From Microvirga terrae (GTDB lineage Bacteria > Pseudomonadota > Alphaproteobacteria > Rhizobiales > Beijerinckiaceae), in contig NZ_CP102845.1 in assembly GCF_013307435.2 (NCBI RefSeq), forward strand, positions 1,736,001 through 1,800,000: 64,000 nt of DNA, read 5' to 3'. Position numbers and translations under genes: made by a program. Below the pieces are notes generated by a model. That model was not told the origin of the DNA. It did no database searches and saw nothing but the letters and a program-made list of their open reading frames with translations. Positions 34,308 to 51,628 of this stretch are shown in pieces (within the stretch, counting starts at the first letter, position 1; every line of letters begins with the position of its first letter).

Positions 34308-35006
34308 TCAAACGTGGAGATACCGGTCCTTGAGGCTCGGATCGGTCATGAGCTCATCGCTCGTTCCGGTCCAGACCGAGCGGCCCTTCTCGATGATCAC
34401 GTGGCGGTCGGCGAAGCTCGCCAGGGCGCCGATGTTCTTGTCGATCACCAGGATCGACTGGCGTTCACCCTTGAGGCGCTTGAGGCACGTCCAGATCTCG
34501 GCGCGGATCAAAGGCGCGAGCCCTTCGGTGGCTTCGTCGAGAATGAGCAGCTTGGGGTTCGTCATGAGCGCTCGGCCGACGGCCAGCATCTGCTGCTCGC
34601 CGCCGGAGAGCTGCGTGCCCAGATTGCTCCGGCGCTCCTTCAGGCGCGGGAAGAGATCATACACCGCATCGAGGGTCCATCGCCGCTCACCGCGCCGGGC
34701 TGACGCGGTTGCAACGAGGTTCTCCTCCACCGTGAGTGTCGGAAAGATCTGCCGACCCTCCGGCACAAGGCCGATGCCGGTCTTCGCGATGCGATAGGGC
34801 GCGAGGCCCGTTACCGCAGCGCCGTCGAAGTGCACCTCGCCGCCCCGGGGGCGGAGCAGGCCCATGATGGACCGGATGGTGGTGGTCTTGCCCATGCCGT
34901 TGCGGCCGAGAAGCGTCACCACCTCGCCGGCCTTCACCTCGAGAGAAATGTCGAAGAGCACCTGCGCGGCGCCGTAGGACGCCTGAAGCTGTCGGACGGA
35001 GAGCAT
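34308..35006 (-). CDS. livF: Branched-chain-type ABC transporter ATPase LivF (importer A)
   Basis: 232 residues: Walker A GRNGMGKTTTIRSIMGL, signature LSGGEQQMLAVGRAL, Walker B LLILDEATEGLAP, switch region VIDKNIGALASFADR. The switch His seen in most LivF proteins is replaced in VIDKNIG, which is odd and worth noting. Its start shares 1 nt with the end of livG. It belongs to the minus-strand set binding protein, livH, livM, livG, livF, then arylformamidase. Confidence 0.9.
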   Translation of the reverse strand: MLSVRQLQASYGAAQVLFDISLEVKAGEVVTLLGRNGMGKTTTIRSIMGLLRPRGGEVHFDGAAVTGLAPYRIAKTGIGLVPEGRQIFPTLTVEENLVATASARRGERRWTLDAVYDLFPRLKERRSNLGTQLSGGEQQMLAVGRALMTNPKLLILDEATEGLAPLIRAEIWTCLKRLKGERQSILVIDKNIGALASFADRHVIIEKGRSVWTGTSDELMTDPSLKDRYLHV

Positions 35007-35761
35007 CAGACCATCTCCTCCTCACCGAGATAGGCCGCTCGAACCTCAGGATTCGCCCTGATCCGCTCCGGCGTGTCGGTGGCGATCACACGGCCGTAGA
35101 CGAGCACGGAGACGCGGTCGGCCAGGGAGAAGACCGCATCCATGTCGTGCTCGATCAGCACGATGGTGAGGCGGCTCTTCAGGCGGCGCAGGGTCTCGAC
35201 CACACGCTGGGATTCGTCATGGCCGGTGCCGGCGAGCGGCTCGTCGAGGAGCAGCAGCCTCGGCTCGGTGGCGAGCCCGATGGCGAGTTCAAGCTGGCGC
35301 TTCTCGCCATGGGACAACAGGCCCGCGGGAATGTGAGCGCGAGCGGCCAGCCCGACCTGAGCGAGACAATCCATGGCAGGTTCGTTCAAGGCCTTCTCCT
35401 GCGACGCGTTGCCGAAGAAGCGGAAGCTTGATCCGGCGCGCGCCTGAACGGCCAACGCCACATTCTCGAGAGCGGAGAAGGCCGGCAGGATCGACGTGAT
35501 CTGGAATGAGCGCGCGAGCCCGCGCCCGACCCGCTGCGGCATCGAAAGACCCGTTACGTCCTCGCCGGCGAACAGAACGGATCCGGAATCGGATGACAAC
35601 GTTCCCGAAATTTGATGGATCAGCGTCGTCTTGCCCGCGCCGTTGGGCCCGATGATGGCATGCAGCTCGCCGGGCTGAACGGAGAGGCTGACGTCGTCCG
35701 TGACGACGAGAGCGCCATAGGCTTTGCGAAGGTGGCGCAGTTCGAGCAGGGGATCAGCCAT
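35006..35761 (-). CDS. livG: Branched-chain-type ABC transporter ATPase LivG (importer A)
   Basis: 251 residues: Walker A GPNGAGKTTLIHQISG, signature LSHGEKRQLELAIGLA, Walker B LLLLDEPLAGTGHDES, switch His in VLIEHDMDAVFSLADR. It overlaps livM by 8 nt and livF by 1 nt, so the subunits are translationally coupled. Confidence 0.92.
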   Translation of the reverse strand: MADPLLELRHLRKAYGALVVTDDVSLSVQPGELHAIIGPNGAGKTTLIHQISGTLSSDSGSVLFAGEDVTGLSMPQRVGRGLARSFQITSILPAFSALENVALAVQARAGSSFRFFGNASQEKALNEPAMDCLAQVGLAARAHIPAGLLSHGEKRQLELAIGLATEPRLLLLDEPLAGTGHDESQRVVETLRRLKSRLTIVLIEHDMDAVFSLADRVSVLVYGRVIATDTPERIRANPEVRAAYLGEEEMV

Positions 35762-36785
35762 GGCGAGGCCTCCGCAGCAGGCCCATGATCCCGCCTCTGG
35801 CGAACAGCACGATCAGGATGAGAAGGGGACCGAAGACCATCTTCCAGTTCTCGGCGAGATGAGCGCGCGCCTCTTCGCTCAGGAAGAAGCTGAGACCATG
35901 CAGGAGTTCCGGCAGGAATTCCTCCAGCAGCAGGAACGCGGCCGCACCGACGATGGCGCCATGCAGGGAGCCGAGACCGCCGAGCACGACCATGAAGATC
36001 AGTTCGCCGGAGCGCTGCCACGTCATGAAGGCGGGGCTGACGAACTCCGCCTGGTTCGCCAAGAGGCAGCCGGCGAGCCCCGCCAGCATGCCGCTGATCA
36101 CATAGGCCATGAGCTGAAACCGGAAGGGCTGAAAGCCGATCGCTTCCATGCGCACGGCATTCTCCCGCGTGCCGCGCAGGACGCGGCCGAACCGCGACGC
36201 GACGGCCGAGCGCGAGAACGCATAGGCGCCGAGAAGGCAGAGCAGGCACACCCAGTAGAAGGCGAAATCGCTCTCCAAGATGCTCGACCCGGCCAAGAGG
36301 CTGCGTGACGACAGGGTCATGCCGTCGTCGCCGCCGTAAGCTGCCAGCGACGTGGCGAGGAAGTACAGCATCTGCCCGAAGGCCAGGGTGATCATGATGA
36401 AATAGACACCCTTGGTCCTCAGCGAAATCGCCCCTGTGACCAGGGCGAAGAGCGCGGAGGCCGCAAGCGCGACGGGAACCTGCACGAGGGCATCCTCAAT
36501 GCCGTGGCTGGCGAGGATCCCGACCGCATAGCCGCCGATGCCGAGGAAGGCCGCGTGGCCGAAGCTCACGAGCGCCCCGTACCCGAGGATGAGGTCGAGC
36601 GCCATGGCGGCGATGCCGAAGATCATCACGCGCGTGAGCAGAGACAGGACATAGCCCTCTGCCCCGGACGCCATGGCCAGCAGCGGCGCGGCCGCGAAGG
36701 CGGCAAAGAGCAGGATGGGAACGATCTCGAGCCGTGGCCTGAGGGACGGCATGGGAGCGGCGTGCGTTTCGGCGAGTTCGGTCAT
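35754..36785 (-). CDS. livM: Branched-chain-type ABC permease LivM (importer A)
   Basis: 343 residues, about nine hydrophobic helices. LDLILGYGALVSFGHAAFLG and VLGGLGSLHGAIVGAAAFLL are family motifs; the cytoplasmic loop has RENAVRMEAIGFQPFRFQLM. It follows livH by 9 bp on the minus strand. Confidence 0.92.
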   Translation of the reverse strand: MTELAETHAAPMPSLRPRLEIVPILLFAAFAAAPLLAMASGAEGYVLSLLTRVMIFGIAAMALDLILGYGALVSFGHAAFLGIGGYAVGILASHGIEDALVQVPVALAASALFALVTGAISLRTKGVYFIMITLAFGQMLYFLATSLAAYGGDDGMTLSSRSLLAGSSILESDFAFYWVCLLCLLGAYAFSRSAVASRFGRVLRGTRENAVRMEAIGFQPFRFQLMAYVISGMLAGLAGCLLANQAEFVSPAFMTWQRSGELIFMVVLGGLGSLHGAIVGAAAFLLLEEFLPELLHGLSFFLSEEARAHLAENWKMVFGPLLILIVLFARGGIMGLLRRPRHG

Positions 36786-36794
36786 TGACGCACC

Positions 36795-37715
36795 TTAGCG
36801 CTTCACGGGAAACAGGCCGGACGGGCGGAAGAACAGCACCGCAGCCATGAAGATGTAGATCAGCATCGGGGCGATGGCCCGGCCGGTCTGGCTTGCGGCC
36901 GCGGGATCGAGCACGAGGCGCAGCAGGTTCGGGGCGAAGCTGCGCCCGACCGTATCCACCAGGCCGATCAGGAGGGCTGCGAGGAACGCACCGCGGATCG
37001 ACCCGATTCCGCCGATCACGATGACCACGAAGGCGAGGATCAGAATGTTGTCGCCCATGCCAGGCTCGACCGACAGGATCGGCGCCACCATCGCGCCGGC
37101 AAAGCCCGCCAGCATGGCGCCGAAGCCGAACACGATCATGAACAGCCGCTGGATGTTGACGCCCAGCGCCGACACCATGGCGGCATTGCTGGCGCCGGCG
37201 CGCACGAGCATGCCGACCCGCGTGTGGTTGACGAGGGCGTAGAGCAGGGCCGCGACCACGAGGCCTGCTGCGATGATCGCGAGGCGATAGACAGGATAGA
37301 GAAGGCCGCTCGCGATCTCGATGGAGCCGGACAAGAGTTCGGGAACGGGGACGCTCAGGGGGGCTGCGCCCCAGACGAACTTCACGCCCTGGTTCAGGAA
37401 CAGGATCACCCCGAAGGTCGCGAGCACCTGGTCGAGATGATCGCGATCGTAGAGATGCCTGAAGACCAGCACTTCGAGCAGAAGGCCGAAGGCTAGCGCG
37501 GAGGGCAGGGCGAGGAGCAGCGCCCAGCCGAAGCTCCCGGTCCAGGCGCTAAACGCCGCCACCAGATAGGCGCCGACCATGTACTGCACGCCATGGGCGA
37601 GATTGATGAAGTCCATCACGCCGAACACCAGGGTCAGCCCGGCCGCGATGAGAAAGAGGATGAGGCCGAATTGGAGGCCGTTCAGAGCCTGGACGAAGAG
37701 AAGTGTTGCGTTCAT
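36795..37715 (-). CDS. livH: Branched-chain-type ABC permease LivH (importer A)
   Basis: 306 residues from ATG 37715. The frame is open to 38012 but that part is antisense to the binding-protein gene. ALNGLQFGLILFLIAAGLTL and VMDFINLAHGVQYMVGAYLV are the usual LivH start, and VVIVIGGIGSIRGAFLAALL is near the C-terminus. It lies 139 bp after the binding-protein gene, with a hairpin in the gap. Confidence 0.92.
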   Translation of the reverse strand: MNATLLFVQALNGLQFGLILFLIAAGLTLVFGVMDFINLAHGVQYMVGAYLVAAFSAWTGSFGWALLLALPSALAFGLLLEVLVFRHLYDRDHLDQVLATFGVILFLNQGVKFVWGAAPLSVPVPELLSGSIEIASGLLYPVYRLAIIAAGLVVAALLYALVNHTRVGMLVRAGASNAAMVSALGVNIQRLFMIVFGFGAMLAGFAGAMVAPILSVEPGMGDNILILAFVVIVIGGIGSIRGAFLAALLIGLVDTVGRSFAPNLLRLVLDPAAASQTGRAIAPMLIYIFMAAVLFFRPSGLFPVKR

Positions 37716-37854: not shown

Positions 37855-39030
37855 TCAGTTCGTGGCGGCACATTCCTTGGCATAGGCGTCGGTGTAGTCG
37901 TCGAACACCTTCTCGACGATCTCCGTCTCCAGCTTGCCGTCGGAACGCTTCGCGGCCTTGACGAGATAGAAGTCCTGGATCGGGAAGCCGTTCGCGCCGA
38001 ACTTGAAGTCACCGCGCAGGGACTTGAACTCCGCCTTCTTGATGGCGGCGCGCAGCGCCTCCTTGTCGTCGGTCTTGCCGCCGGTCGCCTTGAGGGCGGA
38101 GTCGATCAGCAGGGCCGCGTCGTAGGAATGCATGGCGTAGGAGGCCGGCACCGTGTTGTAGGCGGCCTCGAAGGCTGCGACGAACTTCTTGTTCTCCGGG
38201 GTGTCCATGTTCGGAGCCCAGTTCGAGCCGCTCAGCATGCCGATGGCGGCATCCTGCTGCGCCGGCAGGTTGGTCTCGTCCACGGTGAAGGCGGAGAGGA
38301 ACGGGATGCGGTCGGCAAGACCAGCCGCACGGTACTGCTTGACCAGGTTCACGCCCATGCCGCCCGGCATGAAGGTGAAGATCGCGTCCGGCTGCATGGA
38401 GGCGATCTTGGCAAGCTCTGACTGGAAGTCGAGGGTGTTCAGCGGGGTGTAGGATTCCTCGACGATCTCGCCCTTGTAGTGGCGCTTGAACCCGGCGAGC
38501 GCGTCCTTGCCGGCTTGGTAGTTCGGCGCGAGCAGGTAGACCTTCTTGTAGCCGCGGTCCTGTGCGACCTTGCCGAGAACCTCGTGGTTCTGGTCGTTCT
38601 GGTACGACGTGGCGAAGAAGTACGGGCTGCAGCTCTTGCCGGCGAGGTTCGAGGGGCCGGCATTCACGCTAATGTAGAAGGTCTTGGCGTCGACGATGGG
38701 CTTCTGCGTCGCGACCGCCACGTTGGAGAAGATCGGTCCGACCACGAAATCGACCTTGTCGCGCTCCAGAAGGCCCTTCACCTTGGTCACCGCCACGTCG
38801 GGCTTCAATTCGTCGTCGACGACGATCACCTCGACATCGCGACCGCCGAGCTTGCCGCCGAGGTCCTTCACCGCGAGCTGGAAGCCGTCGCGGGCGTGCT
38901 GGCCGAGCACGGCCGAAGGGCCGGACAGGGTCAGCAGCAGGCCGACCTTCAGCTTCTCCTGCGCCATGGCCGGCACCGCCGCCAATCCGACGGCGGCTGC
39001 GAGGCCAAGGGTTTTGATCGTCACGTTCAT
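37855..39030 (-). CDS. ABC transporter substrate-binding protein, LivK-like (importer A)
   Basis: 391 residues with a signal peptide (TLGLAAAVGLAAVPAMAQ). The mature protein starts EKLKVGLLLTLSGPSAVLGQ, the type-I periplasmic fold used for amino acids, amides and aromatic acids. The start is one of two adjacent ATGs (39033, 39030); GGGAG favours 39030. The binding partner cannot be read from sequence. Because it is divergent from a 2-aminobenzoate-type CoA ligase and shares its promoter region, an aromatic amine acid, kynurenine or tryptophan is a reasonable guess. Confidence 0.9.
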   Translation of the reverse strand: MNVTIKTLGLAAAVGLAAVPAMAQEKLKVGLLLTLSGPSAVLGQHARDGFQLAVKDLGGKLGGRDVEVIVVDDELKPDVAVTKVKGLLERDKVDFVVGPIFSNVAVATQKPIVDAKTFYISVNAGPSNLAGKSCSPYFFATSYQNDQNHEVLGKVAQDRGYKKVYLLAPNYQAGKDALAGFKRHYKGEIVEESYTPLNTLDFQSELAKIASMQPDAIFTFMPGGMGVNLVKQYRAAGLADRIPFLSAFTVDETNLPAQQDAAIGMLSGSNWAPNMDTPENKKFVAAFEAAYNTVPASYAMHSYDAALLIDSALKATGGKTDDKEALRAAIKKAEFKSLRGDFKFGANGFPIQDFYLVKAAKRSDGKLETEIVEKVFDDYTDAYAKECAATN

Positions 39031-39033
39031 CAT

Positions 39034-39428
39034 TGTCTCCCGAGTGGCTGTTCCCTGCGCACATTTGCTGTGCTGCGTGATTGTTTCCGGCGGGACGCGA
39101 GGCGTCTCGACGGACAAGGCGGCGCTACTCTGCCGCAAATCGTTTCTGCCGAACACTCCCTTTGTCGGAGCTCTTCCCCCGGCATCCCCAGTCTTTGCCC
39201 AATCTTTGGGATTGCCAAGGATTGTTTTAAGATTAAAATATTTCTCCGGTTCTTCAAGCGGATTATTTCGCACACGAAGGCAGGCGGAATGACGAGCGCG
39301 TGATTGGCCGCGGACGGGCAGCGACACGGGGTTCGCCATGCAGCGCGATCCCCCGGCGTGCCGCCTGGGCCTGGCCAAGCTGAACGCGCCGCGTCCTCCC
39401 GGCTCACAATAAGACAGAGGAGCGGACG
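39034..39428. other. Divergent promoter region between importer A and the CoA-ligase operon
   Basis: 395 bp without a gene. It holds an AT-rich island at about 39220-39245 in otherwise GC-rich DNA, with a promoter and operator-like palindrome described separately. The remainder, including 39260-39428, shows no further structure I can name. Confidence 0.6.
39212..39242 (+). promoter_or_regulatory. Promoter with overlapping operator-like palindrome (site 1)
   Basis: TTGCCA (39212-39217), 16 nt, TAAAAT (39234-39239) is a good sigma-70 promoter. The palindromic core TTTTAAG/ATTAAAA spans 39225-39238, and the 22-bp site 39221-39242 starts with half-site ATTGTTTTAAG. The operator covers the spacer and -10, so binding should repress. 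It resembles site 2 at 41132-41153 at 18 of 22 positions. Confidence 0.62.
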
Positions 39429-41078
39429 ATGGCCGACACGGCGCATGTGGATACCTTCGCGAGGGACAATCTTCCGCCTCGGGACCAGTGGCCGGAATTC
39501 CGGTTCTCCCGGCCGGAGCTCCAATATCCCGAGCGCCTGAACTGCGCCGTCGCGTTTCTCGATCGGTGGGTCGAGGAGGGCCGGGGGGACGAACCCTGTC
39601 TGATCTGCCCGACCGAGACCCTGACCTACCGGGCACTGCAGGAGCGAGTGAACCGCATCTGCAACGTCCTGGTCCACCGGCTCGGCTTCGTGGCCGGCAA
39701 CCGCGTCCTGCTGCGGTCCGCCAACAATCCGATGATGGTGGCCGCCTATATGGCGGTCCTGAAGGCCGGCGGCATCGTGGTGGCCACCATGCCGCTCCTG
39801 CGCGCCAAGGAAATCGCTTATCCGCTGAAAAAGGCGAAGATCACCATCGCATTCTGCGACCATCGGCTGGCGGACGAGATGGAGCGAGCCCGGACGCTGG
39901 CCCCGGATCTGCAGCACGTGGTGTACTGGGGCTCGGGACAATCCGACAGTCTCGAAGCCCTGATGGCGGAGGTGTCGCCGGAATTCGAAGCGGTCGATAC
40001 GGCGGCGGACGACGTCTGCCTGATCGGGTTCACCTCCGGCACGACGGGCGAGCCCAAGGGCACCATGCATTTCCACCGGGACATGCTGGCGATCTGCGAC
40101 GGCTATGCTGGGAACGTTCTGCGGCCGGAGGCGAGCGACCGCTTCATCGGCTCACCGCCGCTTGCCTTCACCTTCGGGCTCGGCGGGATCGTGCTGTTCC
40201 CCATGCGGGTCGGCGCCTCCACCGTGCTGCTGGAGAAGGCGGGTCCCGACGATCTTCTGCCCGCCATCATGCAGTACCGGGCGACCATCTGCTTCACGGC
40301 GCCGACCGCGTATCGCGCCATGCTGTCGAAGCTCGAGGGCTACGACATCTCGTCCCTGCGCAAATGCGTCTCGGCCGGCGAGCCGCTGCCGAAGGGCACG
40401 TTCGAGGCTTGGAAGGCCGCCACGAACATCCGGCTCATGGACGGGATCGGCGCGACGGAAATGCTGCACATCTTCATCGCCGCCACCGAGGACGAGATCC
40501 GCCCCGGCGCGACCGGCAAGCCGGTCCCGGGCTACGAGGCGAAGGTGATCGACGAAGAAGGGCGCGACCTGCCGCCCGGCAGCATCGGCCGTCTGGCGGT
40601 GCGCGGGCCGACCGGGTGCCGCTATCTCGCCGACGATCGGCAGGGCAAATACGTGCTGGACGGCTGGAACGTCACCGGTGACACCTACCTCATGGATGAG
40701 GATGGGTACTTCTGGTACCAGGCCCGCTCCGACGACATGATCATCTCGGCCGGCTACAACATCGCCGGCCCGGAGGTCGAGGCCGCGCTCCTCACCCATC
40801 CGGCCGTGGCGGAATGCGGCGTGGTGGGAGCGCCCGACGACGGGCGCGGCACTGTGGTCAAGGCCTATGTGGTTCTGCGCCCCGGCCAGACGCCCGGGCC
40901 CGATCTGACGAAGGTGCTCCAGGATCACGTGAAGGCCGAGATCGCGCCCTACAAGTACCCGCGACTCATCGAGTTCGTGGACGCCCTCCCGCGCACCCAG
41001 ACCGGCAAGCTGCAGCGCTTCGCCCTGCGCCAGATCGCCCAGGAGGCCGACAACCACCAGGCGGCGATGAGCGCCTGA
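39429..41078 (+). CDS. abmG: 2-aminobenzoate (anthranilate)-CoA ligase, benzoate-CoA ligase family
   Basis: Acyl-adenylate enzyme that makes the CoA thioester of an aromatic acid with ATP. 549 residues. AMP-binding motif FTSGTTGEPKGTMHFHRDM (near 200), ATEMLHIFIAA, YQARSDDMIISAGYNIAGPE (near 430) and the C-terminal catalytic Lys in TQTGKLQRFALRQ. The assignment to 2-aminobenzoate rather than benzoate rests on the next gene, a fused monooxygenase/reductase known from 2-aminobenzoyl-CoA metabolism. Salicylate is the main alternative. Purine-rich AGAGGAGCGG precedes the ATG. Confidence 0.82.
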   Translation: MADTAHVDTFARDNLPPRDQWPEFRFSRPELQYPERLNCAVAFLDRWVEEGRGDEPCLICPTETLTYRALQERVNRICNVLVHRLGFVAGNRVLLRSANNPMMVAAYMAVLKAGGIVVATMPLLRAKEIAYPLKKAKITIAFCDHRLADEMERARTLAPDLQHVVYWGSGQSDSLEALMAEVSPEFEAVDTAADDVCLIGFTSGTTGEPKGTMHFHRDMLAICDGYAGNVLRPEASDRFIGSPPLAFTFGLGGIVLFPMRVGASTVLLEKAGPDDLLPAIMQYRATICFTAPTAYRAMLSKLEGYDISSLRKCVSAGEPLPKGTFEAWKAATNIRLMDGIGATEMLHIFIAATEDEIRPGATGKPVPGYEAKVIDEEGRDLPPGSIGRLAVRGPTGCRYLADDRQGKYVLDGWNVTGDTYLMDEDGYFWYQARSDDMIISAGYNIAGPEVEAALLTHPAVAECGVVGAPDDGRGTVVKAYVVLRPGQTPGPDLTKVLQDHVKAEIAPYKYPRLIEFVDALPRTQTGKLQRFALRQIAQEADNHQAAMSA

Positions 41079-41121
41079 CTGTCCCGCTTGCAGGATCCGG
41101 CGGAGGATCGGCGGCGGCAGG

Positions 41122-41153
41122 TTGATCCGCAATTATTTTAAGCTTAAAACAAT
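41122..41153 (+). promoter_or_regulatory. Internal promoter with operator-like palindrome (site 2)
   Basis: TTGATC (41122-41127), 17 nt, TAAAAC (41145-41150). The perfect 14-bp palindrome TTTTAAGCTTAAAA (41136-41149) sits over the -10, within a 22-bp imperfect palindrome (41132-41153) whose right arm CTTAAAACAAT is the exact complement of the left arm of site 1. It lies in the 101-bp gap between the ligase and monooxygenase genes. Confidence 0.65.
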
Positions 41154-41179
41154 AAGCGCAATCGTTGGGTAGGATTCTC

Positions 41180-43534
41180 ATGAAGACGGCGATCATCGGC
41201 GGTGGCCCGGCGGGGCTCTATTTCGCGATCCTGCTGAAGAAGCTTCGGCCGGATTCCGACATCACGGTGTATGAGCGCAACCGCGCCGACGAGACGTTCG
41301 GCTTCGGAGTCGTGTTCTCCGACGCGACCCTGGACAATTTCGAGAAGTACGACCTGCCCAGCTACCGGCGGATCGTGCGGGAATTCGCCTATTGGGACGA
41401 CATCGCCATCCATTTCCGCGGCACCGAGCACCGGATCGGCGGCAACGGCTTCTGCGGCTGCTCGCGCCGCACGCTGCTCCTGATCCTGCAGGATCGGGCG
41501 GAGGAGCTCGGCGTGGGCCTGCGCTACGAGGCCGACGTGGACGACGAGAGCCTGTTCGCCGACGCGGACCTCGTGGTCGTGGCGGACGGCATCAACAGCC
41601 GCTTCCGCGAGCGCTATGCGGACCACTTCCAGCCGGAGGTGGACCTGCGGCCCAACAAGTTCACCTGGATGGGCTCGACGAAGCCGCTCGACGCCTTCAC
41701 GTTCATCTTCCAGGAAACGGAGTGGGGGCCGTTCATCGCCCATGCCTACCAATATGAGGCGAATCGCTCGACCTGGGTGTTCGAGACCGATCCGGAGACT
41801 TTCGAGCGGGCCGGGCTGAAGGACATGAGCGAGGCCGAGTCGGCCGCGCTCATGGAGAAGATCTTCGGCTGGTTCCTGGGCGGGCACCGCATTCTCACCA
41901 ACCGGTCGATCTGGCGCAACTTCCCGATGATCCGCAGCAAGCGCTGGGTGATGGGCAACAAGGTGCTGCTCGGCGATGCCAAGGCGTCGGCGCATTTCTC
42001 GATCGGGTCGGGCACGAAGCTCGCCATGGAGGATGCGATCGCGCTCTACGAGGCCTTCCGCCGCGAGCCCGGCGTCGAGGGTGCGCTGTCCCTCTACGAG
42101 ACCGGGCGTCGCGAGGAGGTCGAGAAGACGCAGCACGCGGCCGACGTGTCCCTGGTCTGGTTCGAGCACGTGGCGCGCTTCTGGGATTTCGACCCGGTGC
42201 AGTTCGCGTTCGGGGTGATGACCCGCGCCAAGGCGATCACCTACGACAACCTGCGCCTGCGCGCGCCCGACTTCGTGGCGGCGGTCGACCGGACCTTCGC
42301 CAAGCAGGTGCGGCAGCAGGGCTTCGAGGTCTCGGTGGAGAGGCCGAACACCCCCATGTTCCAGCCCTTCCGCCTGCGCGAGATGATCGTTCCGAACCGG
42401 GTCGTGGTCTCGCCGATGGATATGTATTCGGCCAAGGACGGCGTGCCGGGGGATTTCCACCTCGTGCATTACGGCGCGCGCGCCACAGGCGGCGCGGGAC
42501 TGGTCTTCACGGAAATGACCTGCGTGTCCCCGGAGGCGCGCATCACGCTCGGATGCACCGGCTTGTGGAACGACGAGCAGGAGGCCGCCTGGAAGCGGAT
42601 CGTCGATTTCATTCACGCCAATTCCGGTGCGAAGTTCTGCCTCCAGCTCGGCCATTCCGGCCGCAAGGGTGCCACCAAGCTCATGTGGGAGGGCATCGAC
42701 CGGCCGCTTGAGGAGGGCGCCTGGGACATCTGCTCGGCGTCTCCGATTCCCTATTTCGAGGACAGCAAGGTGCCGCGTGAGGCAACCCGCGCCGACATGG
42801 ACCTCATCACGTCGCAGTTCGTCGAGGCCGCAAGGCGCGGCGAACGGGCCGGGTTCGACATGCTCGAGCTGCACTGCGCCCACGGCTACCTGCTGGCGAG
42901 CTTCCTGTCGCCGCTCACGAACCGGCGCACGGACGATTATGGCGGCTCTCTCGAGAACCGGCTGCGGTTTCCGCTCGAGGTGTTCGACGCCATGCGCGAG
43001 GTCTGGCCCGCGCACAAGCCCATGTCGGTGCGCATCTCGGCGACCGACTGGGCCGAGGGCGGCATCACGGGCGACGATGCGGTCGGGATCGCCCGTGCCT
43101 TCGCGGAGCACGGCGTTGATCTCGTCGACGTCTCGACGGGACAGACCGTCCGCCAGGCGCGGCCGATCTACGGGCGCATGTTCCAGACGCCGTTCTCCGA
43201 TCAGGTGCGCAACGAGGCACGGGTCGCCACCATGTGCGTCGGCAACATCACGGCGGCCGATCAGGTGAACACGATCCTGGCCGCCGGCCGCGCGGATCTC
43301 GTCGCTCTCGGCCGGCCGCATCTCGTCGATCCGTTCTTCACCATGAAGGCCGCGGCCTGGTACGGCGCCAAGGACATCCATTGCCCACCGCAATATCTCG
43401 CCGGCAAGGACCAGATCTTCCGCAACTCCGTTCGCGACCGTCAGGATCTGGAAGAGCTCAAGGTGAAAGCGAAGCCCAAGACCCGGGCGGAGCTGAAGAT
43501 GGAGGCCGGCGAGAAGCCTCTCGCGGCGGAGTGA
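41180..43534 (+). CDS. abmA: Fused FAD monooxygenase / OYE-type reductase (2-aminobenzoyl-CoA monooxygenase/reductase)
   Basis: 784 residues from ATG 41180 (AGGA 7 nt upstream). The N-terminal half is a PHBH-like FAD monooxygenase: [57 protein letters not shown]. From about 395 an old-yellow-enzyme NADH:flavin domain follows: [73 protein letters not shown]. This pair is the hallmark of the enzyme that hydroxylates and then reduces 2-aminobenzoyl-CoA to a non-aromatic 2-amino-5-oxocyclohexenyl-CoA; databases often call it salicylyl-CoA 5-hydroxylase. Both activities are in the cytoplasm. Confidence 0.88.
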
Positions 43535-43535
43535 G

Positions 43536-44303
43536 ATGATCATGACTCCTCTCAAGGGGCGGCATGCCCTGGTGACCGGTGGCGGCCGCGGGATCGGCCG
43601 CGCCATCGCGGCATCGCTCGTGAAGGCCGGTGCGACGGTCACCGTCGTCGGAAGGTCTGCCGCGTCGCTCGAACAGGCGGTCGCGCTGGGCGACGCTCAT
43701 GCGGCGACCGTGGCCGACGTGACGGATCTGCAGGCGGTTCAGCGCGCCGTGCAGGCCGCGGTCGACCGTCATGGTCCGGTCGATCTCATGATTGCCAATG
43801 CGGGTTCGGCCGCGTCCGCGCCGTTCCTGAAATCGGACCCCGACATGTTCCGGCGGATGCTTGACGTGAACCTGCTCGGCGTCACCACCATGGCGCAGGC
43901 TGTCCTCGGCTCTATGACGGAGCGCGGCTTCGGGCGCATCGTCGCGGTGGCGTCCACCGCGGGCCTCAAGGGCTATCCCTATGTGAGCGCCTATTGCGCC
44001 GCCAAGCACGCGGTCATCGGCTTCGTGCGTGCGCTTGCGCTCGAGACCGCGAAGACCGGCGTCACCGTCAATGCGGTCTGCCCGGGATTTTCCGACACCG
44101 ATCTGGTGGCCGAGAGCCTCGACCGGATCATGGCGAAAACCAACAGGACCCGCGACGAGGCGCTCGCCGAACTCGTGAAGCACAATCCGCAGGGTCGACT
44201 GATCGATCCCGCGGAGATCGCCGATGCGGTCGTCTGGCTGTGCGGCGAGAGCGCGCGCTCCGTGACCGGACAGGCGATCGTGGTGGCCGGGGGAGAACTG
44301 TGA
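43536..44303 (+). CDS. Short-chain dehydrogenase/reductase in the CoA pathway
   Basis: 255 residues with TGGGRGIGRAIAAS (NAD(P) binding), NAG in MIANAGSAAS, and the active-site YVSAYCAAKHAV (Y-x3-K). It starts 1 bp after the monooxygenase gene. In this setting it probably oxidises a 3-hydroxyacyl-CoA or a ring alcohol after reduction. The exact step is inferred. Start may be ATG 43536 or 43542. Confidence 0.85.
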   Translation: MIMTPLKGRHALVTGGGRGIGRAIAASLVKAGATVTVVGRSAASLEQAVALGDAHAATVADVTDLQAVQRAVQAAVDRHGPVDLMIANAGSAASAPFLKSDPDMFRRMLDVNLLGVTTMAQAVLGSMTERGFGRIVAVASTAGLKGYPYVSAYCAAKHAVIGFVRALALETAKTGVTVNAVCPGFSDTDLVAESLDRIMAKTNRTRDEALAELVKHNPQGRLIDPAEIADAVVWLCGESARSVTGQAIVVAGGEL

Positions 44304-44305
44304 CG

Positions 44306-44815
44306 ATGGACGACCAAGCCATTCCTCTCGACGCCGAGACCAAGGCCGTCGAGCAGCCCGAGGACCACCGGGAGGAGCTGCGCCTGTGGCTGCGGCTTCT
44401 CACCTGCTCAACCCTGATCGAGGGCGAGGTGCGCCGCCGCCTGCGCGAGCGCTTCGACGTCACGCTCCCCCGCTTCGACCTGATGGCGCAGCTCGACAAG
44501 GCTCCGGACGGCATGATGCTGTCCGATCTCTCGAAGCGCATGATGGTGTCGAACGGCAACCTCACGGGCCTCGTCGATCGGCTCGTCGCGTCGGGCCATG
44601 TGGTCCGGACCGTATCGCCGACGGACCGGCGCGCCATGGTGATCAGTCTGACCGACGAAGGCCGCGCCGAGTTCCGGACCATGGCGGGCGAGCATGAACA
44701 TTGGATCGCCGACCTTTTCGGCGATCTCAACGCAAAGGACCGCACGGATCTCATGCGGCTTCTCGCGAAGACCAAGCTGTCCGCCCGGCGTGCCATCATG
44801 GGAGACGATCAGTGA
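44306..44815 (+). CDS. MarR family transcriptional regulator
   Basis: 169 residues with the winged-helix core: [60 protein letters not shown]. An in-frame GTG at 44300 is an alternative start. It is embedded in the degradation operon between the SDR and the hydratase, so it is the likely local regulator. MarR repressors bind two-fold palindromes and release when an aromatic acid or its CoA ester binds; the two TTTTAAG-type sites fit this. Confidence 0.9.
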
Positions 44816-45648
44816 CCCGGTTTGCCAATTCCGTCACCCTGCCGCTCGCGTCCTACGAGCCGCGTCATTTCCTCCTGACCGTCGACGGTCCTGTGGCGAA
44901 CCTCACCCTGAACCGTCCGGACCGAAAAAATCCGCTCACCTTCGAGAGCTACCGCGAGCTGACCGATTTCTTCCACGCCTGCGCCAAGGACGAAGACGTC
45001 AAGGCCGTGGTCATCAGCGGAGCCGGCGGCAATTTCTCGTCCGGCGGCGACGTGTTCGAGATCATCGGTCCGCTCGTCGAGATGGACACCAAGGGCCTCA
45101 CCGCCTTCACGCGCATGACGGGCGAACTGGTCAAGGCCATGCGCGCCGCGCCGCAGCCGATCGTGGCGGCGGTCGAGGGTATCTGCGCGGGAGCCGGCGC
45201 CATCATCGCCATGGCGTCCGACATCCGCCTCGCGGCGCCCGGCGCCAAGGTGGCGTTCCTGTTCAACAAGGTCGGACTCGCCGGCTGCGACATGGGCGCC
45301 TGCGCGATTCTCCCGCGCATCATCGGCCAGGGCCGCGCGTCCGAACTCCTCTACACGGGACGGTTCATGAGCGCCGAGGAGGGCGAGCGCTGGGGCTTCT
45401 TCAGCCGCCTCGTCGCGGCCGCCGATCTTCCCACGGAAGCAGGCATCCTCGCGGGCGCGATCGGCACCGGACCGACCTATGCCAACACCATGACCAAGCG
45501 CATGCTCGCCATGGAATGGGCCATGTCGGTGGAGGAGGCCATCGAGGCGGAGGCCGTCGCGCAGGCCCTGTGCATGACGACGGAGGATTTCGCCCGCGCC
45601 TACCGCGCTTTCGCGGCGAAAGAGAAACCGGTTTTCAAGGGAGATTGA
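44812..45648 (+). CDS. Enoyl-CoA hydratase/isomerase family protein
   Basis: 278 residues from GTG 44812, which overlaps the MarR stop (GTGA) and has GGGAG 7 nt upstream. Crotonase-fold marks: [18 protein letters not shown] (oxyanion hole), [37 protein letters not shown]. It probably hydrates an unsaturated CoA intermediate or opens the ring of the cyclohexane-type CoA ester. The exact reaction cannot be told from sequence. Confidence 0.87.
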
Positions 45649-45649
45649 C

Positions 45650-46876
45650 GTGATCGATGCGAGCTTTCTCTCCTGGCCGTTCTTCGAGGGCCGGCACCGG
45701 GAATTCGCCGCCGGGCTTAACGCCTGGGCGGCCCGGGAGGTCCGACCTCTCGTCGATCACCACGACGTGGATGCCTCCTGCCGCCGCCTCGTGCGGCGCC
45801 TCGGCGAAGGCGGATGGCTGAGGGCGGTGGTGCCGCAGGCTCATGGCGGCCTCTTCCCGTCCTTCGACGTACGCACCCTGTGCCTTGCGCGGGAAACGCT
45901 GGCCGCGCACGAGGGCCTGGCGGATTTCGCCTTCGCCATGCAGGGCCTCGGCACGGGGCCGATCACCTTGTTCGGTTCGGATGCGCTCAAGGACCGTTAC
46001 CTGCCGCCGGTCGCGCGGGGCGAGGCCATCGCGGCCTTCGCGCTCTCGGAGCCCGAGGCGGGGTCGGACGTGGCGGCCATGAGCACCACGGCGACACCGG
46101 ATGGATCGGACCACGTGCGGATCGACGGAGTGAAGACCTGGATCTCGAACGGGGGGATCGCGGATCATTACGTGGTCTTCGCGCGCTCGGGCGAAGCGCC
46201 CGGCGCAAAGGGCCTGTCCGCCTACGTGGTCGATGCGCAGACGCCCGGGTTGAGCATCGAGAACCGCATCGACGTGATCGCGCCGCATCCTCTCGCGACC
46301 CTGCGCTTCGAAGGCTGCCGGGTTCCGGTGGCAAACCGGATCGGCGGTCCCGGCGAAGGCTTCAAGGTCGCCATGGCGACCCTCGACGTGTTCCGCTCCA
46401 CGGTCGGAGCCGCCGCGCTTGGGCTCGCCCGCCGCGCGCTCGCCGAGGCACTGCAGCACGCCGCCTCGCGCAAACTCTTCGGTGCGCCGCTCGGTGATCT
46501 GCAGATGACCCAGGGCGCACTGGCCGACATGGCGACCGGCGTGGACGGCGCGGCGCTTCTCGTCTATCGGGCGGCCTGGACCAAGGATCAGGGTGCGTCC
46601 CGGGTCACGCGCGAGGCGGCGATGGCCAAGATGTACGCGACGGAAGCGGCGCAGAGCGTCATCGACAAGGCGGTTCAGATCTTCGGCGGCCTTGGCGTCA
46701 CCAAGGGCGTCAAGGTCGAGGAGCTTTACCGCGAAATCCGCGCATTGCGCATCTACGAGGGCGCCACCGAGGTTCAGAAAGTCGTGATCGCACGAGAGCT
46801 TCTGAAGATGCTGGAGAGCCAACGCTCCGGTGAGCTCGGTTCCGTCGCCAATCGTCAAGGGGGGAAACCACAATGA
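45650..46876 (+). CDS. Acyl-CoA dehydrogenase
   Basis: 408 residues from GTG 45650, 1 bp after the hydratase, with GGGAG 8 nt upstream. [19 protein letters not shown] and [20 protein letters not shown] bind FAD and substrate; [20 protein letters not shown] and [19 protein letters not shown] complete the fold, with the usual catalytic Glu position in YEGATE. It would introduce a double bond into a cyclic or linear CoA ester. Its stop overlaps the ridA-like start. Confidence 0.9.
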
Positions 46877-47316
46877 CAGCCGCACTGGAAGGCGCTCCCA
46901 TGCTGGGCATCGATGATGGGCCGGAGGTTCTCAACCCGAAGCACTGGCGCACACCCAAGGGCTACGCCAACGGCATGGCGGCCGAGGGCCGGGTCGTGGT
47001 GACGGGCGGCATCGTGGGCTGGGACGAGAGCGAGACCTTCGCCGACGGTTTCGTCGCCCAGGCTCGCCAGATCTTCGAGAACATCCGTGCCATCCTGGCC
47101 GAGGGAGGGGCCGAGCCCCGGCACCTCGTGCGCCTGACCTGGTACGTGGTCGATATCGACGAGTATCTCGTCAATCTCCGCGAGCTGGGCCGCGCCTACC
47201 GGGATGTGTTCGGCGCGCATTATCCGGCCATGGCCCTGGTTCAGGTCGTGCGGCTCGTGGAAAAGGCCGCCCGGCTCGAGGTCGAAGCGACGGCGATCGT
47301 TCCGAGCAAGCGATAG
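46873..47316 (+). CDS. RidA/YjgF family enamine/imine deaminase
   Basis: 147 residues with the YjgF fold: [74 protein letters not shown] (ending with the usual Arg and Glu). RidA proteins hydrolyse reactive enamines and imines. The predicted product of the monooxygenase/reductase is an enamine, so a pathway-specific role in ring deamination is likely. It is the last gene of the operon and overlaps the dehydrogenase by 4 nt. Confidence 0.9.
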
Positions 47317-47990: not shown

Positions 47991-49115
47991 TTATTGCCCG
48001 GCTTGCCGCAGCCGTCCGACGATGCCGCCCGGAAACGCGTAGACGCTAATCACGAACAGGGCCCCGAGCCACAGGAGCCAGCGATCCGGATGGACGAGGT
48101 TCGGCAGGAGCGGAAGGCCCGCCAGGGCGGAGCTGCCGGCGGCCATCAGCACCTGCAGGTAGCTCTGTGCCAGGACGAACAGGGCGGCGCCGATCACTGC
48201 CCCGTAGAGGGTGCCCATGCCGCCGATCACCACCATGAGCAGGATGTCGATCATGATCGAGAACGACAGGGTGGTGTCGGGTCCGTTATAACGCAGCCAC
48301 AGGGCCATCAGCGCGCCGGCAATCGTCGCCGCGAGGGCCGAGATCACCGAGGCGGCCGTGCGGTAGGCGACGACCCGGTACCCCAGGGCCTCGGCCCGGA
48401 ACTCGTTCTCGCGGATCGCCTGCAGCACCCGTCCGAAGGGCGAGTTCACGATGCGCAGGAGGACGAGGAACACGGCGAGCGAGACGAAGAAGACGAGGTA
48501 ATAGGCGAGGAGCCGCCCGTTGACGGCGGTGCCGAAGAGGGGCTCCGACAGGAGCCGGAAGGCGGGGCGCAGGGCCGGGGGCAGCTGGAACGACAATCCG
48601 TCCTCGCCGCCGGTCACGTCCGACAGTTGCGACGCCAGCACGGCCGCCGCCGAGGCCACCGCCAGGGTGATCATAGAGAAGAAGATGGCGCGCACCCTCA
48701 GCGACAGGAGGCCGATCGCGACGGCGAGCGTCGCAGACAGCGCGAGCGCCGCGACCAGGCCGATGGCGGCCGATCCCCAGGTCGGGCCCAGGCGCTCGAG
48801 CGCGATCGCGATGCCGTAGCCGCCTATGCCGAAGAACATGGTGTGGGCGAAGGACACGATGCCGGAATAGCCGAGGAGAAGGTCGTAGCTCGCGACCAGC
48901 ACGACGAACACGCAGATCTTCGCGGCGGTGCCCAGGGGCTGGCTGCCGGAGAACAGGAAGGGGGTCGCGGCGAGGAGCAGCAGGATCGCCAGCAGGATCG
49001 CGCTCAGCACCTTGGAGCGCGGCAGGTCCGAGGACAGGATCGCGTTCAGGAAGCCGCCGCGCGGGCGGGTCTCGTCGAAGGGAAGCGCGAGGACGGAGGC
49101 GGGAGACGTGCTCAT
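47991..49115 (-). CDS. livM: Branched-chain-type ABC permease LivM (importer B)
   Basis: 374 residues from ATG 49115, which overlaps the livH stop by 4 nt. LLLGYSGIVSFAHTMFFGIG, RENEFRAEALGYRVVAYRTA and VVIGGMGTLYGAVIGAALFV are family motifs. The N-terminal ~35 residues before the first helix are longer than in importer A LivM. It is last in the minus-strand set binding protein, livG, livF, livH, livM. Confidence 0.92.
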   Translation of the reverse strand: MSTSPASVLALPFDETRPRGGFLNAILSSDLPRSKVLSAILLAILLLLAATPFLFSGSQPLGTAAKICVFVVLVASYDLLLGYSGIVSFAHTMFFGIGGYGIAIALERLGPTWGSAAIGLVAALALSATLAVAIGLLSLRVRAIFFSMITLAVASAAAVLASQLSDVTGGEDGLSFQLPPALRPAFRLLSEPLFGTAVNGRLLAYYLVFFVSLAVFLVLLRIVNSPFGRVLQAIRENEFRAEALGYRVVAYRTAASVISALAATIAGALMALWLRYNGPDTTLSFSIMIDILLMVVIGGMGTLYGAVIGAALFVLAQSYLQVLMAAGSSALAGLPLLPNLVHPDRWLLWLGALFVISVYAFPGGIVGRLRQAGQ

Positions 49116-50128
49116 CGGCGGGCCACCGGAAACAGGCCCTGCGGACGCCAGATCAGCACCAGGGCCATGACGAGGATGTTGGAGATCAGGGCGAGCTTGG
49201 GCTCGATGAAGCCGACGTAATTGGCTACCAGGGCGACCAGGATCGAGCCGACGAAGCAGCCGCCCACGGAACCGAGTCCGCCGATGATGATGACGATGAA
49301 GACCAGCACCATCACCTCCATGCCCATGCCGGCGGTGAGGGTCTGGCGGTAAAAGGCCCACATGACGCCGCCGAGGCCTGCCAGCGCCGACCCGGCGACG
49401 AAGACGCTGACGAAGAGGCGGCGGATCCGGTAGCCGAGCGCCTCGACCATCTCGGGGTTCTCGACGCCGGCCCGGATCAGCAGGCCGAGGCGGGTGCGGT
49501 TGAGCAGGAGCTGCATCGCGATGAAGACCAGGAGCCCGATGGCGACCGCCACGACGCGGTAGCGCTCCATGACGATGTCGCCGAACACGAAGGCGCCGCG
49601 CAGGGATTGCGGCAGCGGGATCGGGATCGGCGAGGCGCCCCAGATGGCATGGATCAGCTGCTCGGCGACGATCAGCCCGCCCATGGTGACGAGGATCTGC
49701 TTCAGGTGGCTGCCATAGACAGGACGCACGATGACGCGCTCGAACACCGCCCCGACCACGCCCGTCACCGCCATGGCGACGAGGATGCAGAGCAGAAGGA
49801 GCGCGAGATTGAGCCCGACGGAATCCGCCGTCGCCCAGCCGGCGAGCGGCCCGAGCACGAGGAGCGTCGCGTAGGCGCCGAGCGAGATGAACACTCCGTG
49901 TCCGAAATTGATGATGTCCATCAGGCCGAACACGAGGGTGAGGCCCGAGGCCATGAGGAAGATCATCATGCCCATGGCGAGCCCCGCCACGGTGAGCGTC
50001 ACCCAGGTCGAGGGGCTGCCGACGAAGGGCAGCGCCAGGAGAGCGAGGGCGGGAACGAGAAGAAGCGGGAGCCAGTCTGTCCGGGCGCGCGGCAGCTCGA
50101 CGGCGGTGTCGGCGGTCATGTCGCTCAT
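49112..50128 (-). CDS. livH: Branched-chain-type ABC permease LivH (importer B)
   Basis: 338 residues: GMMIFLMASGLTLVFGLMDI, INFGHGVFISLGAYATLLVL, IVIIIGGLGSVGGCFVGSIL. An N-terminal hydrophobic helix (LPLLLVPALALLALPF) precedes the usual LivH start. Overlaps livF by 4 nt and livM by 4 nt. Confidence 0.92.
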   Translation of the reverse strand: MSDMTADTAVELPRARTDWLPLLLVPALALLALPFVGSPSTWVTLTVAGLAMGMMIFLMASGLTLVFGLMDIINFGHGVFISLGAYATLLVLGPLAGWATADSVGLNLALLLLCILVAMAVTGVVGAVFERVIVRPVYGSHLKQILVTMGGLIVAEQLIHAIWGASPIPIPLPQSLRGAFVFGDIVMERYRVVAVAIGLLVFIAMQLLLNRTRLGLLIRAGVENPEMVEALGYRIRRLFVSVFVAGSALAGLGGVMWAFYRQTLTAGMGMEVMVLVFIVIIIGGLGSVGGCFVGSILVALVANYVGFIEPKLALISNILVMALVLIWRPQGLFPVARR

Positions 50129-50850
50129 TGGTGCGCATCCAGGGAAAGGCCGAGCAGGCGCTGCTGCAGGTCCGCGTCCGCGACGAGGTCGCTCATGGCG
50201 CCGGCATGCACGATGCGCCCGTCGTCCATCACGACCACATTGTCACCGAGCGCCGAGGCGGCATAGAAGTTCTGCTCCACCAGCAGGATCGTCTCGCCGG
50301 ACGCTTTCAGCGCCTTGAAGGCTTCGATCATGGAGCGCACCATCACGGGCGCGAGACCTTTCGTCGGCTCGTCGATGAGGAGCAGGCGGCGCGGTTCCGC
50401 GATGGCGCGCGCGATGGCGAGCATCTGCTTCTGGCCCCCGGAGAGGTTGCCGGCCGGCAGGTTCCAGAAGCGCTTGAGGGCGGGGAAGAGGCCGAGGATC
50501 CAGTCGAGCCTGCTCCTGTCGACCGGCCCGCTGCGGGCCGCGAGCACAATGTTCTCGCGCACGGTCAGATCCGTGAAGATGCCCATGGCCTCGGGCACGT
50601 AGGCGATGCCCGAGCGCGCGATATCCGGCGTGGCGGCTTTCGTGATGTCGCGGCCGTCGAAGCGGATGCTGCCCGACGAGGCCTGCCACAGGCCCATGAT
50701 GGTGCGCAGCGTCGTGGTCTTGCCCGCGCCGTTGCGGCCGAGCAGCATGGTCAACCCGCCGGCCGGGACGACGAAGTCGACACCGTGCAGGATGTGGTAG
50801 GGGCCGATATGCGTGTGCACTTCGGCGAGCTGGAGAAGGGGCTCAGCCAC
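50125..50850 (-). CDS. livF: Branched-chain-type ABC transporter ATPase LivF (importer B)
   Basis: 241 residues from GTG 50850 (overlapping livG by 8 nt); longer frames upstream are antisense-like. Walker A GRNGAGKTTTLRTIMGL, signature LSGGQKQMLAIARAIA, Walker B LLLIDEPTKGLAP, and VEQNFYAASALGDNVVVMD. Confidence 0.91.
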   Translation of the reverse strand: MAEPLLQLAEVHTHIGPYHILHGVDFVVPAGGLTMLLGRNGAGKTTTLRTIMGLWQASSGSIRFDGRDITKAATPDIARSGIAYVPEAMGIFTDLTVRENIVLAARSGPVDRSRLDWILGLFPALKRFWNLPAGNLSGGQKQMLAIARAIAEPRRLLLIDEPTKGLAPVMVRSMIEAFKALKASGETILLVEQNFYAASALGDNVVVMDDGRIVHAGAMSDLVADADLQQRLLGLSLDAHQ

Positions 50851-51622
50851 GGGCGGCCTCCACGCCGAGATAGGCCTCCTGCACCACCGGCGAGGCGATG
50901 ACCGCGGCGGGCTCGCCGTCGGCCACGAGGGTGCCGTTGTGCAGCACGATGATCCGGTCGGAGAGCGAGCGCACCACGTCCATCTTGTGCTCCACGAGAA
51001 GCACTGTGGCGTCGCCGCGCTCCTTGATGTCGTGGATGAGTTCGAGCACGGTCGGCACCTCATCAACGCTCATGCCGGCGGTCGGCTCGTCGAACATGAA
51101 GACCTTGGGCTCCATGGCGATCAGGAGCGCCACCTCGAGCTTGCGCTGGTCGCCGTGCGACAGGGCCTTCGGGGCCACGTGCCGCTTGTCAGCGAGCCGC
51201 ACCCGTTCCAGCACGCTCTCCGCCTTGTCGATCAGGTCGCGGCGCGCGTTCCACACCCTGAACATCGACCAGCCTGCGTCCGCCCGGCTCTGCACCGCGA
51301 GGCGGACATTCTCGAGCGCCGTGAGCTGCGGAAACAGGTTGGTGAGCTGGAACGCGCGACCCAGGCCTCGCCGCGTGCGCGCCGAGGCGGGCAGCCGCGT
51401 GATGTCCTCGCCCGCGACGACGACCTGTCCGGACGTGGCGCGGAGCTGCCCGGAGATCAGGTTGAAGTAGGTCGTCTTGCCGGCGCCGTTGGGGCCGACA
51501 ATCGCTGTGAGCGTGCCCGGCGTGAACCGGCACGACACGTCGTTGACCGCTACATGGCCGCCGAAGCGAACGGTCAGCCCGCGCGTTTCGAGCGCGGGCG
51601 TCGCTGTCGTGGATGGGATCAC
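50843..51622 (-). CDS. livG: Branched-chain-type ABC transporter ATPase LivG (importer B)
   Basis: 259 residues: Walker A GPNGAGKTTYFNLISGQ, signature LSHGDQRKLEVALLIA, Walker B VFMFDEPTAGMSVDEV, switch His in LLVEHKMDVVRSLSDR. It starts 6 bp after the binding-protein stop. Confidence 0.92.
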   Translation of the reverse strand: MIPSTTATPALETRGLTVRFGGHVAVNDVSCRFTPGTLTAIVGPNGAGKTTYFNLISGQLRATSGQVVVAGEDITRLPASARTRRGLGRAFQLTNLFPQLTALENVRLAVQSRADAGWSMFRVWNARRDLIDKAESVLERVRLADKRHVAPKALSHGDQRKLEVALLIAMEPKVFMFDEPTAGMSVDEVPTVLELIHDIKERGDATVLLVEHKMDVVRSLSDRIIVLHNGTLVADGEPAAVIASPVVQEAYLGVEAARG

Positions 51623-51628
51623 GTCGGC

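Follow-up and report, generated by a model that had tools for sequence, protein, structure and literature searches.

Which protein would read the two AT-rich palindromes that stand before the genes of a predicted coenzyme A (CoA)-dependent pathway of anthranilate (2-aminobenzoate) degradation in Microvirga terrae, and to which metabolite would it respond? The palindromes lie in a stretch of 64,000 nucleotides (the window: bases 1,736,001-1,800,000 of contig C1, NZ_CP102845.1, of a 6.13 Mb genome), one of them before a gene for an aryl-CoA ligase and the other before the gene for ACMR, probably a 2-aminobenzoyl-CoA monooxygenase/reductase. An earlier note, made from the letters alone, had proposed them as targets of the MarR-family protein encoded at 44306. 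We give a probability of about 0.82 to the reading that the two sites are the operators of one regulon, with the MarR protein (44306-44815) regulating by repression, and from sequence comparison we strongly infer that this protein binds both.

Two palindromes over two probable promoters

The sites and the promoter elements assigned to them are the following.

39221..39242, strand not assigned: operator 1, ATTGTTTTAAGATTAAAATATT, an imperfect 22-bp palindrome (8 of 11 pairs) in the intergenic region of the divergent livJ and ligase genes
41132..41153, strand not assigned: operator 2, ATTATTTTAAGCTTAAAACAAT, a 22-bp palindrome (10 of 11 pairs) that ends 26 bp 5' of the ACMR start codon
39212..39217, plus strand: probable -35 of the ligase promoter, TTGCCA
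39234..39239, plus strand: probable -10 of the ligase promoter, TAAAAT, within operator 1
41122..41127, plus strand: probable -35 of the ACMR promoter, TTGATC
41145..41150, plus strand: probable -10 of the ACMR promoter, TAAAAC, within operator 2

The earlier note had the coordinates and letters of both sites exactly right, including their identity at 18 of 22 positions and a half-site, ATTGTTTTAAG, that is the exact complement of CTTAAAACAAT; the sites are also as AT-rich as it described, with A or T at 19 of the 22 positions of operator 2, in a window of 65% GC. The consensus of the palindrome is approximately ATTRTTTTAAG-CTTAAAAYAAT, and with up to three mismatches to its symmetric form the two operators are the sole matches in the whole genome. 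A reversed pattern, searched as a control in the same genome and with the same tolerance, gave no matches, and neither did the symmetric consensus in 100 dinucleotide shuffles of the window. When 21 sites served to train a matrix, none of them from the genus of M. terrae (g1), from group g36 or from Bradyrhizobium, operator 2 scored 43.3, operator 1 scored 36.8, and the third-best position of the window scored -3.1, so that the second branched-chain-type ABC transporter just past the operon (livJ2 and others, 47991-52819, minus strand) is without an operator. Taken together, the rarity in the genome, the shuffles and the matrix scores rule out a chance palindrome.

A sigma-70 consensus scan of positions 38950-41250 returned one promoter only, TTGCCA-16-TAAAAT at 39212-39239, and the -35 of this promoter is part of an ATTGCCA that all 28 of the sequences compared retain. 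The second promoter, TTGATC-17-TAAAAC (41122-41150), whose last -10 base is not T, was missed by the scan and is backed by the spacing of a TTG, visible in the Microvirga alignment, that starts 9-11 bases 5' of the operator. This spacing is shown by 23 of the 28 ACMR promoters compared, a set made up of the 25 in the family genome-wide site search described below and three chosen loci. The proposal that each operator covers a -10 is supported by the scan for operator 1 and by the TTG spacing for operator 2. Compared by eye, the Microvirga sequences have little in common beyond the TTG, the operator and the start region, the flanking intergenic sequence having diverged.

Operator 1 is found about midway between two start codons, at 187 bases from the likely one of livJ (39033) and at 186 bases from that of the ligase (39429), and may serve both genes. 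The phrase "two promoters of the degradation operon", by which the earlier note had described the arrangement, is incomplete in that operator 1 also faces a divergent transporter. Since the operator is palindromic, its two strands carry a TAAAAY-like hexamer at equivalent positions, and the element could act as operator and -10 in both directions. On the livJ strand, 24 of 28 sequences retain a TTGAAG, but by manual count it stands 22 bases from TAAAAC and 16 bases from a poor TAATCT, and this, along with the similar distances to the two start codons, could be taken to mean that operator 1 controls just one of the two divergent promoters, or that MarR activates. We regard either as rather unlikely, as a palindrome placed on a -10 argues for exclusion of RNA polymerase, and 10 of the 69 sites found across the family face livJ-type genes alone.

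The operator in other genomes

A pattern search of 199 genomes of the family gave 69 places, in 37 genomes and 15 genera, all of which could be located, and 52 of them precede genes of the locus. Sorted by facing gene, 25 sites belong to ACMR, 25 to livJ, 12 to a short-chain dehydrogenase (SDR), seven to the ligase and one to marR, some facing two genes at once, and for 68 of the 69 sites the start of a query gene lies within 420 bases, the largest distance being 255. For two of the 52 (G052:C11, G132:C34) the facing gene is a livJ relative with just 49% identity, perhaps belonging to a different transporter, and livJ relatives that stand apart carry the operator in their own promoters as well (L149, L156, and also L153, at 49% identity). 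The earlier note had named a motif common in unrelated promoters as the outcome that would count against its proposal; what was found is a motif with two places in its own genome and with family sites that are mostly at locus genes. Seven extra queries, for tryptophan 2,3-dioxygenase (TDO), two kynureninases, an FAD monooxygenase, FadJ, an amidohydrolase and DctQ, were drawn from the operator neighborhoods themselves, and for this reason the seven sites at the FAD monooxygenase, at FadJ/enoyl-CoA hydratase (ECH) and at the amidohydrolase count for nothing alone. One good operator match (G036:C1:2948455, which is L134:3956) is near TRAP transporter genes, and no target was found for it.

At closer range, a site (score of at least 15, at most 200 bases 5' of ACMR) is present in 27 of the 30 Microvirga-titled loci and in 49 of the 50 Bradyrhizobium loci among the ACMR loci fetched from named genomes (80 in all, the best of 269 relatives), at 22-45 bases (median 27) and 25-39 bases (median 30), respectively, from the ACMR start; these named loci overlap with the family genomes (for example L016/G170, L018/G157, L030/G122 and L057/G074), and the two sets are thus not independent. 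The intergenic region of operator 1 holds a site in 28 of 28 sequences (the window and 27 Microvirga loci). That the two sites could be chance AT-rich promoter elements of no regulatory role, as their composition in a GC-rich window and their overlap with -10-like elements might suggest, has a negligible probability and is in effect refuted: conservation across genera and across families extends to both halves of the palindrome, and the motif, rare as it is, keeps returning at the same genes.

The order of the genes varies between genera, and the genes that become heads of new units usually retain the site. One example is a Bradyrhizobium locus (L032) in which SDR and ECH precede ACMR, while marR and the ligase are found further on, with sites 5' of SDR, ACMR, marR and the ligase. 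Other genera present the arrangement livJ/site/SDR-marR-ECH-ACAD-ligase-RidA (ACAD, acyl-CoA dehydrogenase), with ACMR elsewhere, or the arrangement SDR.../site/ACMR. In three genomes (G020, G079, G084) ACMR with its site lies at least 0.5 Mb from marR on the same contig (about 0.5 Mb in G020), and in further genomes the two are on different contigs. The persistence of the site at an ACMR far from marR indicates that the operator is tied to function and not merely to a conserved neighborhood.

A second set of targets connects the locus to tryptophan. Kynureninase releases anthranilate, and 9 of the 69 family sites precede TDO and/or kynureninase: five lie between TDO and a divergent kynureninase-like gene, one precedes TDO alone, and three precede a second type of kynureninase. 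These nine retain weight because curated models name the genes. TDO is recognized by TIGR03036 (405 and 417 bits, cut-off 390.7), the protein of L155 giving a partial match of 171 bits, and the query protein of the second kynureninase type (L243) exceeds the cut-off of TIGR01814 (321 versus 246 bits); the first type, at 44.5 bits, falls short of it but possesses the KYNU_C domain. In a search directed at TDO in 30 of the 37 motif-bearing genomes, using a matrix with no TDO sites in its training, 22 genomes had a TDO match, and 11 of these had a site of at least 22 bits within about 420 bases upstream; in addition, a site heads a kynureninase-TDO pair in G079. M. terrae carries a TDO-kynureninase operon of its own (G000:C1:4204434-4205225, L187), its divergent kynureninase being missed by TIGR01814 alone. 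The TDO of this operon was ruled out as a target, the best score in about 420 bp upstream being -16.9, and TDO genes in four other genomes of the genus with a TDO match have no site either, so that the extension to tryptophan is lineage-specific. Separately, a TDO-like protein with 32% identity to the TDO of L150, a divergent dioxygenase, has the operator at its head in L155 (G163:C10:463504-464484).

At the level of the class, 18 places were found outside the genome of M. terrae. Nine are at locus genes (SDR, ACMR, liv), one is at a kynureninase (L243), one is at an ACAD homologue of 59% identity, and seven are at other genes: three of these encode acyl-CoA dehydrogenases, one an enoyl-CoA hydratase and one an old-yellow-enzyme-like reductase, and the remaining two are an octopine-dehydrogenase-like or Fe-S gene and an open reading frame (ORF) that, judged by eye, is hydantoinase-like. 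In L244 the operator occupies an odd place, 3' of livJ and 5' of livH. This site and those at the seven other genes may be extra targets or chance.

In three genomes from other families (L241, L245 and L251, at about 2.8-4.0 kb, minus strand) the operator is 5' of an acyl-CoA dehydrogenase of uncertain substrate. In two genera it stands 20-59 bp 5' of an FAD monooxygenase (L149:9744-10985 and L152:2755-3993, both minus strand) that matches NF005720 and, more weakly, 3-hydroxybenzoate 6-monooxygenase, and that is possibly an alternative anthranilate hydroxylase. In two genomes of one genus (L154, at about 3988, and L265, at about 3463) it separates an enoyl-CoA-hydratase-like gene from a divergent FadJ-like gene, a hint that later steps of beta-oxidation may be controlled as well.

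The MarR protein as the probable regulator

The protein encoded at 44306 matches PF12802 (41.5 bits, cut-off 27) and PF01047 (40.6 bits, cut-off 24.6) and has the fold topology of the family, helix-helix-helix-helix-wing-helix-helix. A fold search returned MarR structures with ligands among its matches, CouR being one of many similar proteins and neither singled out nor excluded. Of the recognition-helix residues (83-96 in the model), N85, T87 and L93 are invariant in 26 of 26 aligned sequences, and N83 and G84 are conserved in at least 90%.

The motif and the protein occur together. A MarR homologue (E of at most 1e-20) is encoded in 78 of the 199 family genomes, including all 37 that bear the motif (nominal P 1e-18, the genomes not being independent), and in the class-level sample the motif is present in 15 of 385 genomes, all of them among the 67 with a MarR homologue (nominal P 1e-12, relatedness being ignored). 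Conversely, the strict pattern was found in none of the 121 family genomes and none of the 318 class genomes without a homologue. These MarR counts are lower bounds, at most 18 candidates per family genome and nine per class genome having been scored, and at the 1e-20 cut some distant matches may be paralogues. The assignment of both operators to this MarR, as proposed in the earlier note, is strongly supported by these comparisons (37 of 37 and 15 of 15 motif-bearing genomes with a homologue), by the site that accompanies a distant ACMR and by the conserved helix.

A number of observations weigh against this reading. ACMR is encoded in 76 of the 199 family genomes, again including all 37 with the motif; 74 genomes encode both proteins, two encode ACMR alone (G007, G160) and four MarR alone (G065, G127, G129, G134). 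The co-occurrence thus ties the motif to the whole locus and cannot separate MarR from ACMR. At the strict pattern, 41 of the 78 MarR-bearing family genomes are without a site; a looser one (at most six mismatches) is found near locus genes in 8 of 13 such loci (L124, L126, L127, L130, L165, L167, L170, L172), is not found near the locus in five (L131, L132, L166, L168, L169), and in L171 is far from marR. Among the ACMR loci, the site before ACMR is missing from L015 and L079 and degenerate in L020 and L021 (11.7 and 6.2). The reversed control pattern matched in one of the 199 family genomes (G004), and the TDO-kynureninase operon of M. terrae is itself without the operator. Finally, at least 23 MarR_2 matches were counted in the M. 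terrae genome, from a scoring of 150 of 176 candidates.

The last of these points, along with a co-occurrence that is equally good for ACMR, could favor a different regulator, encoded elsewhere, that binds the sites and leaves the MarR at 44306 with another role. We consider this improbable: no transcription regulator besides MarR was seen in the set of locus genes compared, the marR gene usually remains with the locus in rearranged genomes, often with a site adjacent, and AT-rich palindromes are the usual sites of MarR proteins. The MarR at 44306 is therefore favored, with its gene inside the operon that it would control and staying with the locus, with its conserved recognition helix, and with palindromes that published accounts describe as typical targets of the family.

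The predicted pathway and its probable inducer

The genes of the locus are listed below.

37855..39033, minus strand: livJ-type periplasmic binding protein (Pfam Peripla_BP_6), first gene of the divergent ABC transporter livJ-H-M-G-F, which extends down to 34308
34308..37715, minus strand: livF, livG, livM and livH of the same transporter, from ORFs, in an order kept in relatives (livH start approximate)
39429..41078, plus strand: aryl-CoA ligase, probably 2-aminobenzoate-CoA ligase, from the match to a structural relative and the NCBIfam family
41180..43534, plus strand: ACMR, bifunctional flavin monooxygenase/old-yellow-enzyme reductase (FAD_binding_3 and Oxidored_FMN; NCBIfam NF006101, 1148 bits)
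43536..44303, plus strand: SDR, from a domain search
44306..44815, plus strand: MarR-family regulator (PF12802, PF01047), proposed repressor at both operators
44806..45648, plus strand: ECH (domain search; NCBIfam NF006107), start uncertain
45650..46876, plus strand: ACAD, from a domain search
46873..47316, plus strand: RidA-like protein (Pfam Ribonuc_L-PSP; NCBIfam Rid-family models below their cut-offs)

The top solved relative of the ligase is the anthranilate-CoA ligase 4wv3 (362 bits), followed by a benzoate-CoA ligase (267 bits), and NCBIfam places the protein in the benzoate-CoA ligase family; by these matches it is probably a 2-aminobenzoate-CoA ligase. For ACMR, whose closest named relative among the best 80 of 269 is that of Microvirga sesbaniae (97% identical), the domains suggest the monooxygenase/reductase of 2-aminobenzoyl-CoA, but the NF006101 equivalog carries the name salicylyl-CoA 5-hydroxylase/oxidoreductase, which also speaks against our reading and makes the substrate less than certain. 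Anthranilate is favored over salicylate on the basis of the kynureninase product, the RidA-like gene and the nearest solved relative of the ligase; a RidA-family enamine/imine deaminase would fit an amino-substituted substrate.

In the circuit that we propose, a MarR dimer would bind each 22-bp palindrome and block transcription, given that the half-site TTAAAAY holds the -10 and that the -35 is just outside. At operator 2 it would repress the genes ACMR-SDR-marR-ECH-ACAD-ridA, which we infer to be a single transcript, so that MarR, encoded within it, would limit its own synthesis; at operator 1 it would repress the ligase and probably also the divergent livJHMGF transporter. Anthranilate, imported or made in the cell, would be converted by basal ligase to 2-aminobenzoyl-CoA, and binding of this ester by MarR would release the DNA, so that uptake, activation and ring attack would be induced at once. 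In certain other genera TDO and kynureninase, supplying anthranilate from tryptophan, would be under the same operator.

As to the inducer, the operators precede the ligase or an operon containing it, in other words the pathway that MarR would regulate begins with an aryl-CoA ligase, and by analogy with known regulators of such pathways we moderately favor 2-aminobenzoyl-CoA; another CoA ester of the pathway is an unlikely candidate. A close analogy is CouR of Rhodococcus jostii RHA1, described as a MarR repressor released by p-coumaroyl-CoA. The CouR box is reported to lie over a -35 and to consist of the inverted repeat cATTGA-TCAATg, its halves separated by a 5-bp spacer, whereas the Microvirga operators are continuous 22-bp AT-rich palindromes on a -10. 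In addition, CouR contacts CoA phosphates through Arg36 and Arg38, whose likely equivalents in the Microvirga MarR (alignment by eye) are T53 and P55, a further point on the opposing side; neither arginine, however, is reported to be conserved in the CoA-responsive homologues of R. palustris and SYK-6, and it is for these reasons that the choice of inducer is worded here as a preference.

These missing arginines would also suit an inducer that is free anthranilate or another free acid, the circuit being otherwise unchanged. Known MarR proteins do bind free aromatic acids (PcaV with its ligand, HosA with 4-hydroxybenzoate, and a MarR bound to indole-3-acetic acid, IAA, among the fold matches), and anthranilate is the compound that connects kynureninase with the ligase, two genes that in some genera each have the operator at their head. 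We nevertheless think a free acid unlikely, as aromatic pathways initiated by a ligase can use MarR proteins that sense CoA thioesters, as described for CouR and FerC, and as the ligase itself belongs to the regulon. The MarR proteins of auxin (IAA) degradation are of a similar fold (7kua, 7kfs, 7kym) and also serve an indole/anthranilate-related pathway, but the ligand studied for them is IAA and the iad loci are described as leading to anthranilate, whereas the Microvirga regulon would act from anthranilate onward.

Other systems are instructive for their differences. FerC of Sphingobium SYK-6 is described as a MarR regulator of an aromatic pathway that is released by feruloyl-CoA, a pathway and a ligand different from those of the Microvirga locus. 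The 2-aminobenzoyl-CoA pathway of Azoarcus evansii and Arthrobacter Rue61a is reported likewise to employ a CoA ligase and a monooxygenase/reductase, and the term MarR is absent from the main text of the Arthrobacter Rue61a paper. The closest solved sequence relative of the regulator, PDB 3boq (1.7e-24; 1.4e-35 with a profile), is a MarR-family protein of unstated function, whose molecule name in the entry mentions no ligand either. Among the matches listed from the open-access literature, we recognized no description of this operator or of a MarR for the 2-aminobenzoyl-CoA pathway. Overall, a pair of MarR operators is an ordinary kind of element, while the comparative case is unusually firm for a regulon that we did not find described, as the operator can be traced through changes in gene order, which makes the assignment of a regulator from sequence alone unusually firm.

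More broadly, a single MarR sensing 2-aminobenzoyl-CoA may govern a regulon across the class, joining tryptophan breakdown, anthranilate uptake and the CoA pathway through one palindrome that doubles as a -10 on either strand, with lineages gaining and losing targets along with the element, a proposal to which we assign even odds. For the CoA-dependent degradation of anthranilate in Alphaproteobacteria (Microvirga, Bradyrhizobium and others), the class to which the host of FerC also belongs, the locus provides a specific operator and regulator that can be tested; it joins the breakdown of tryptophan to the use of anthranilate, and it offers a possible part for an anthraniloyl-CoA biosensor.

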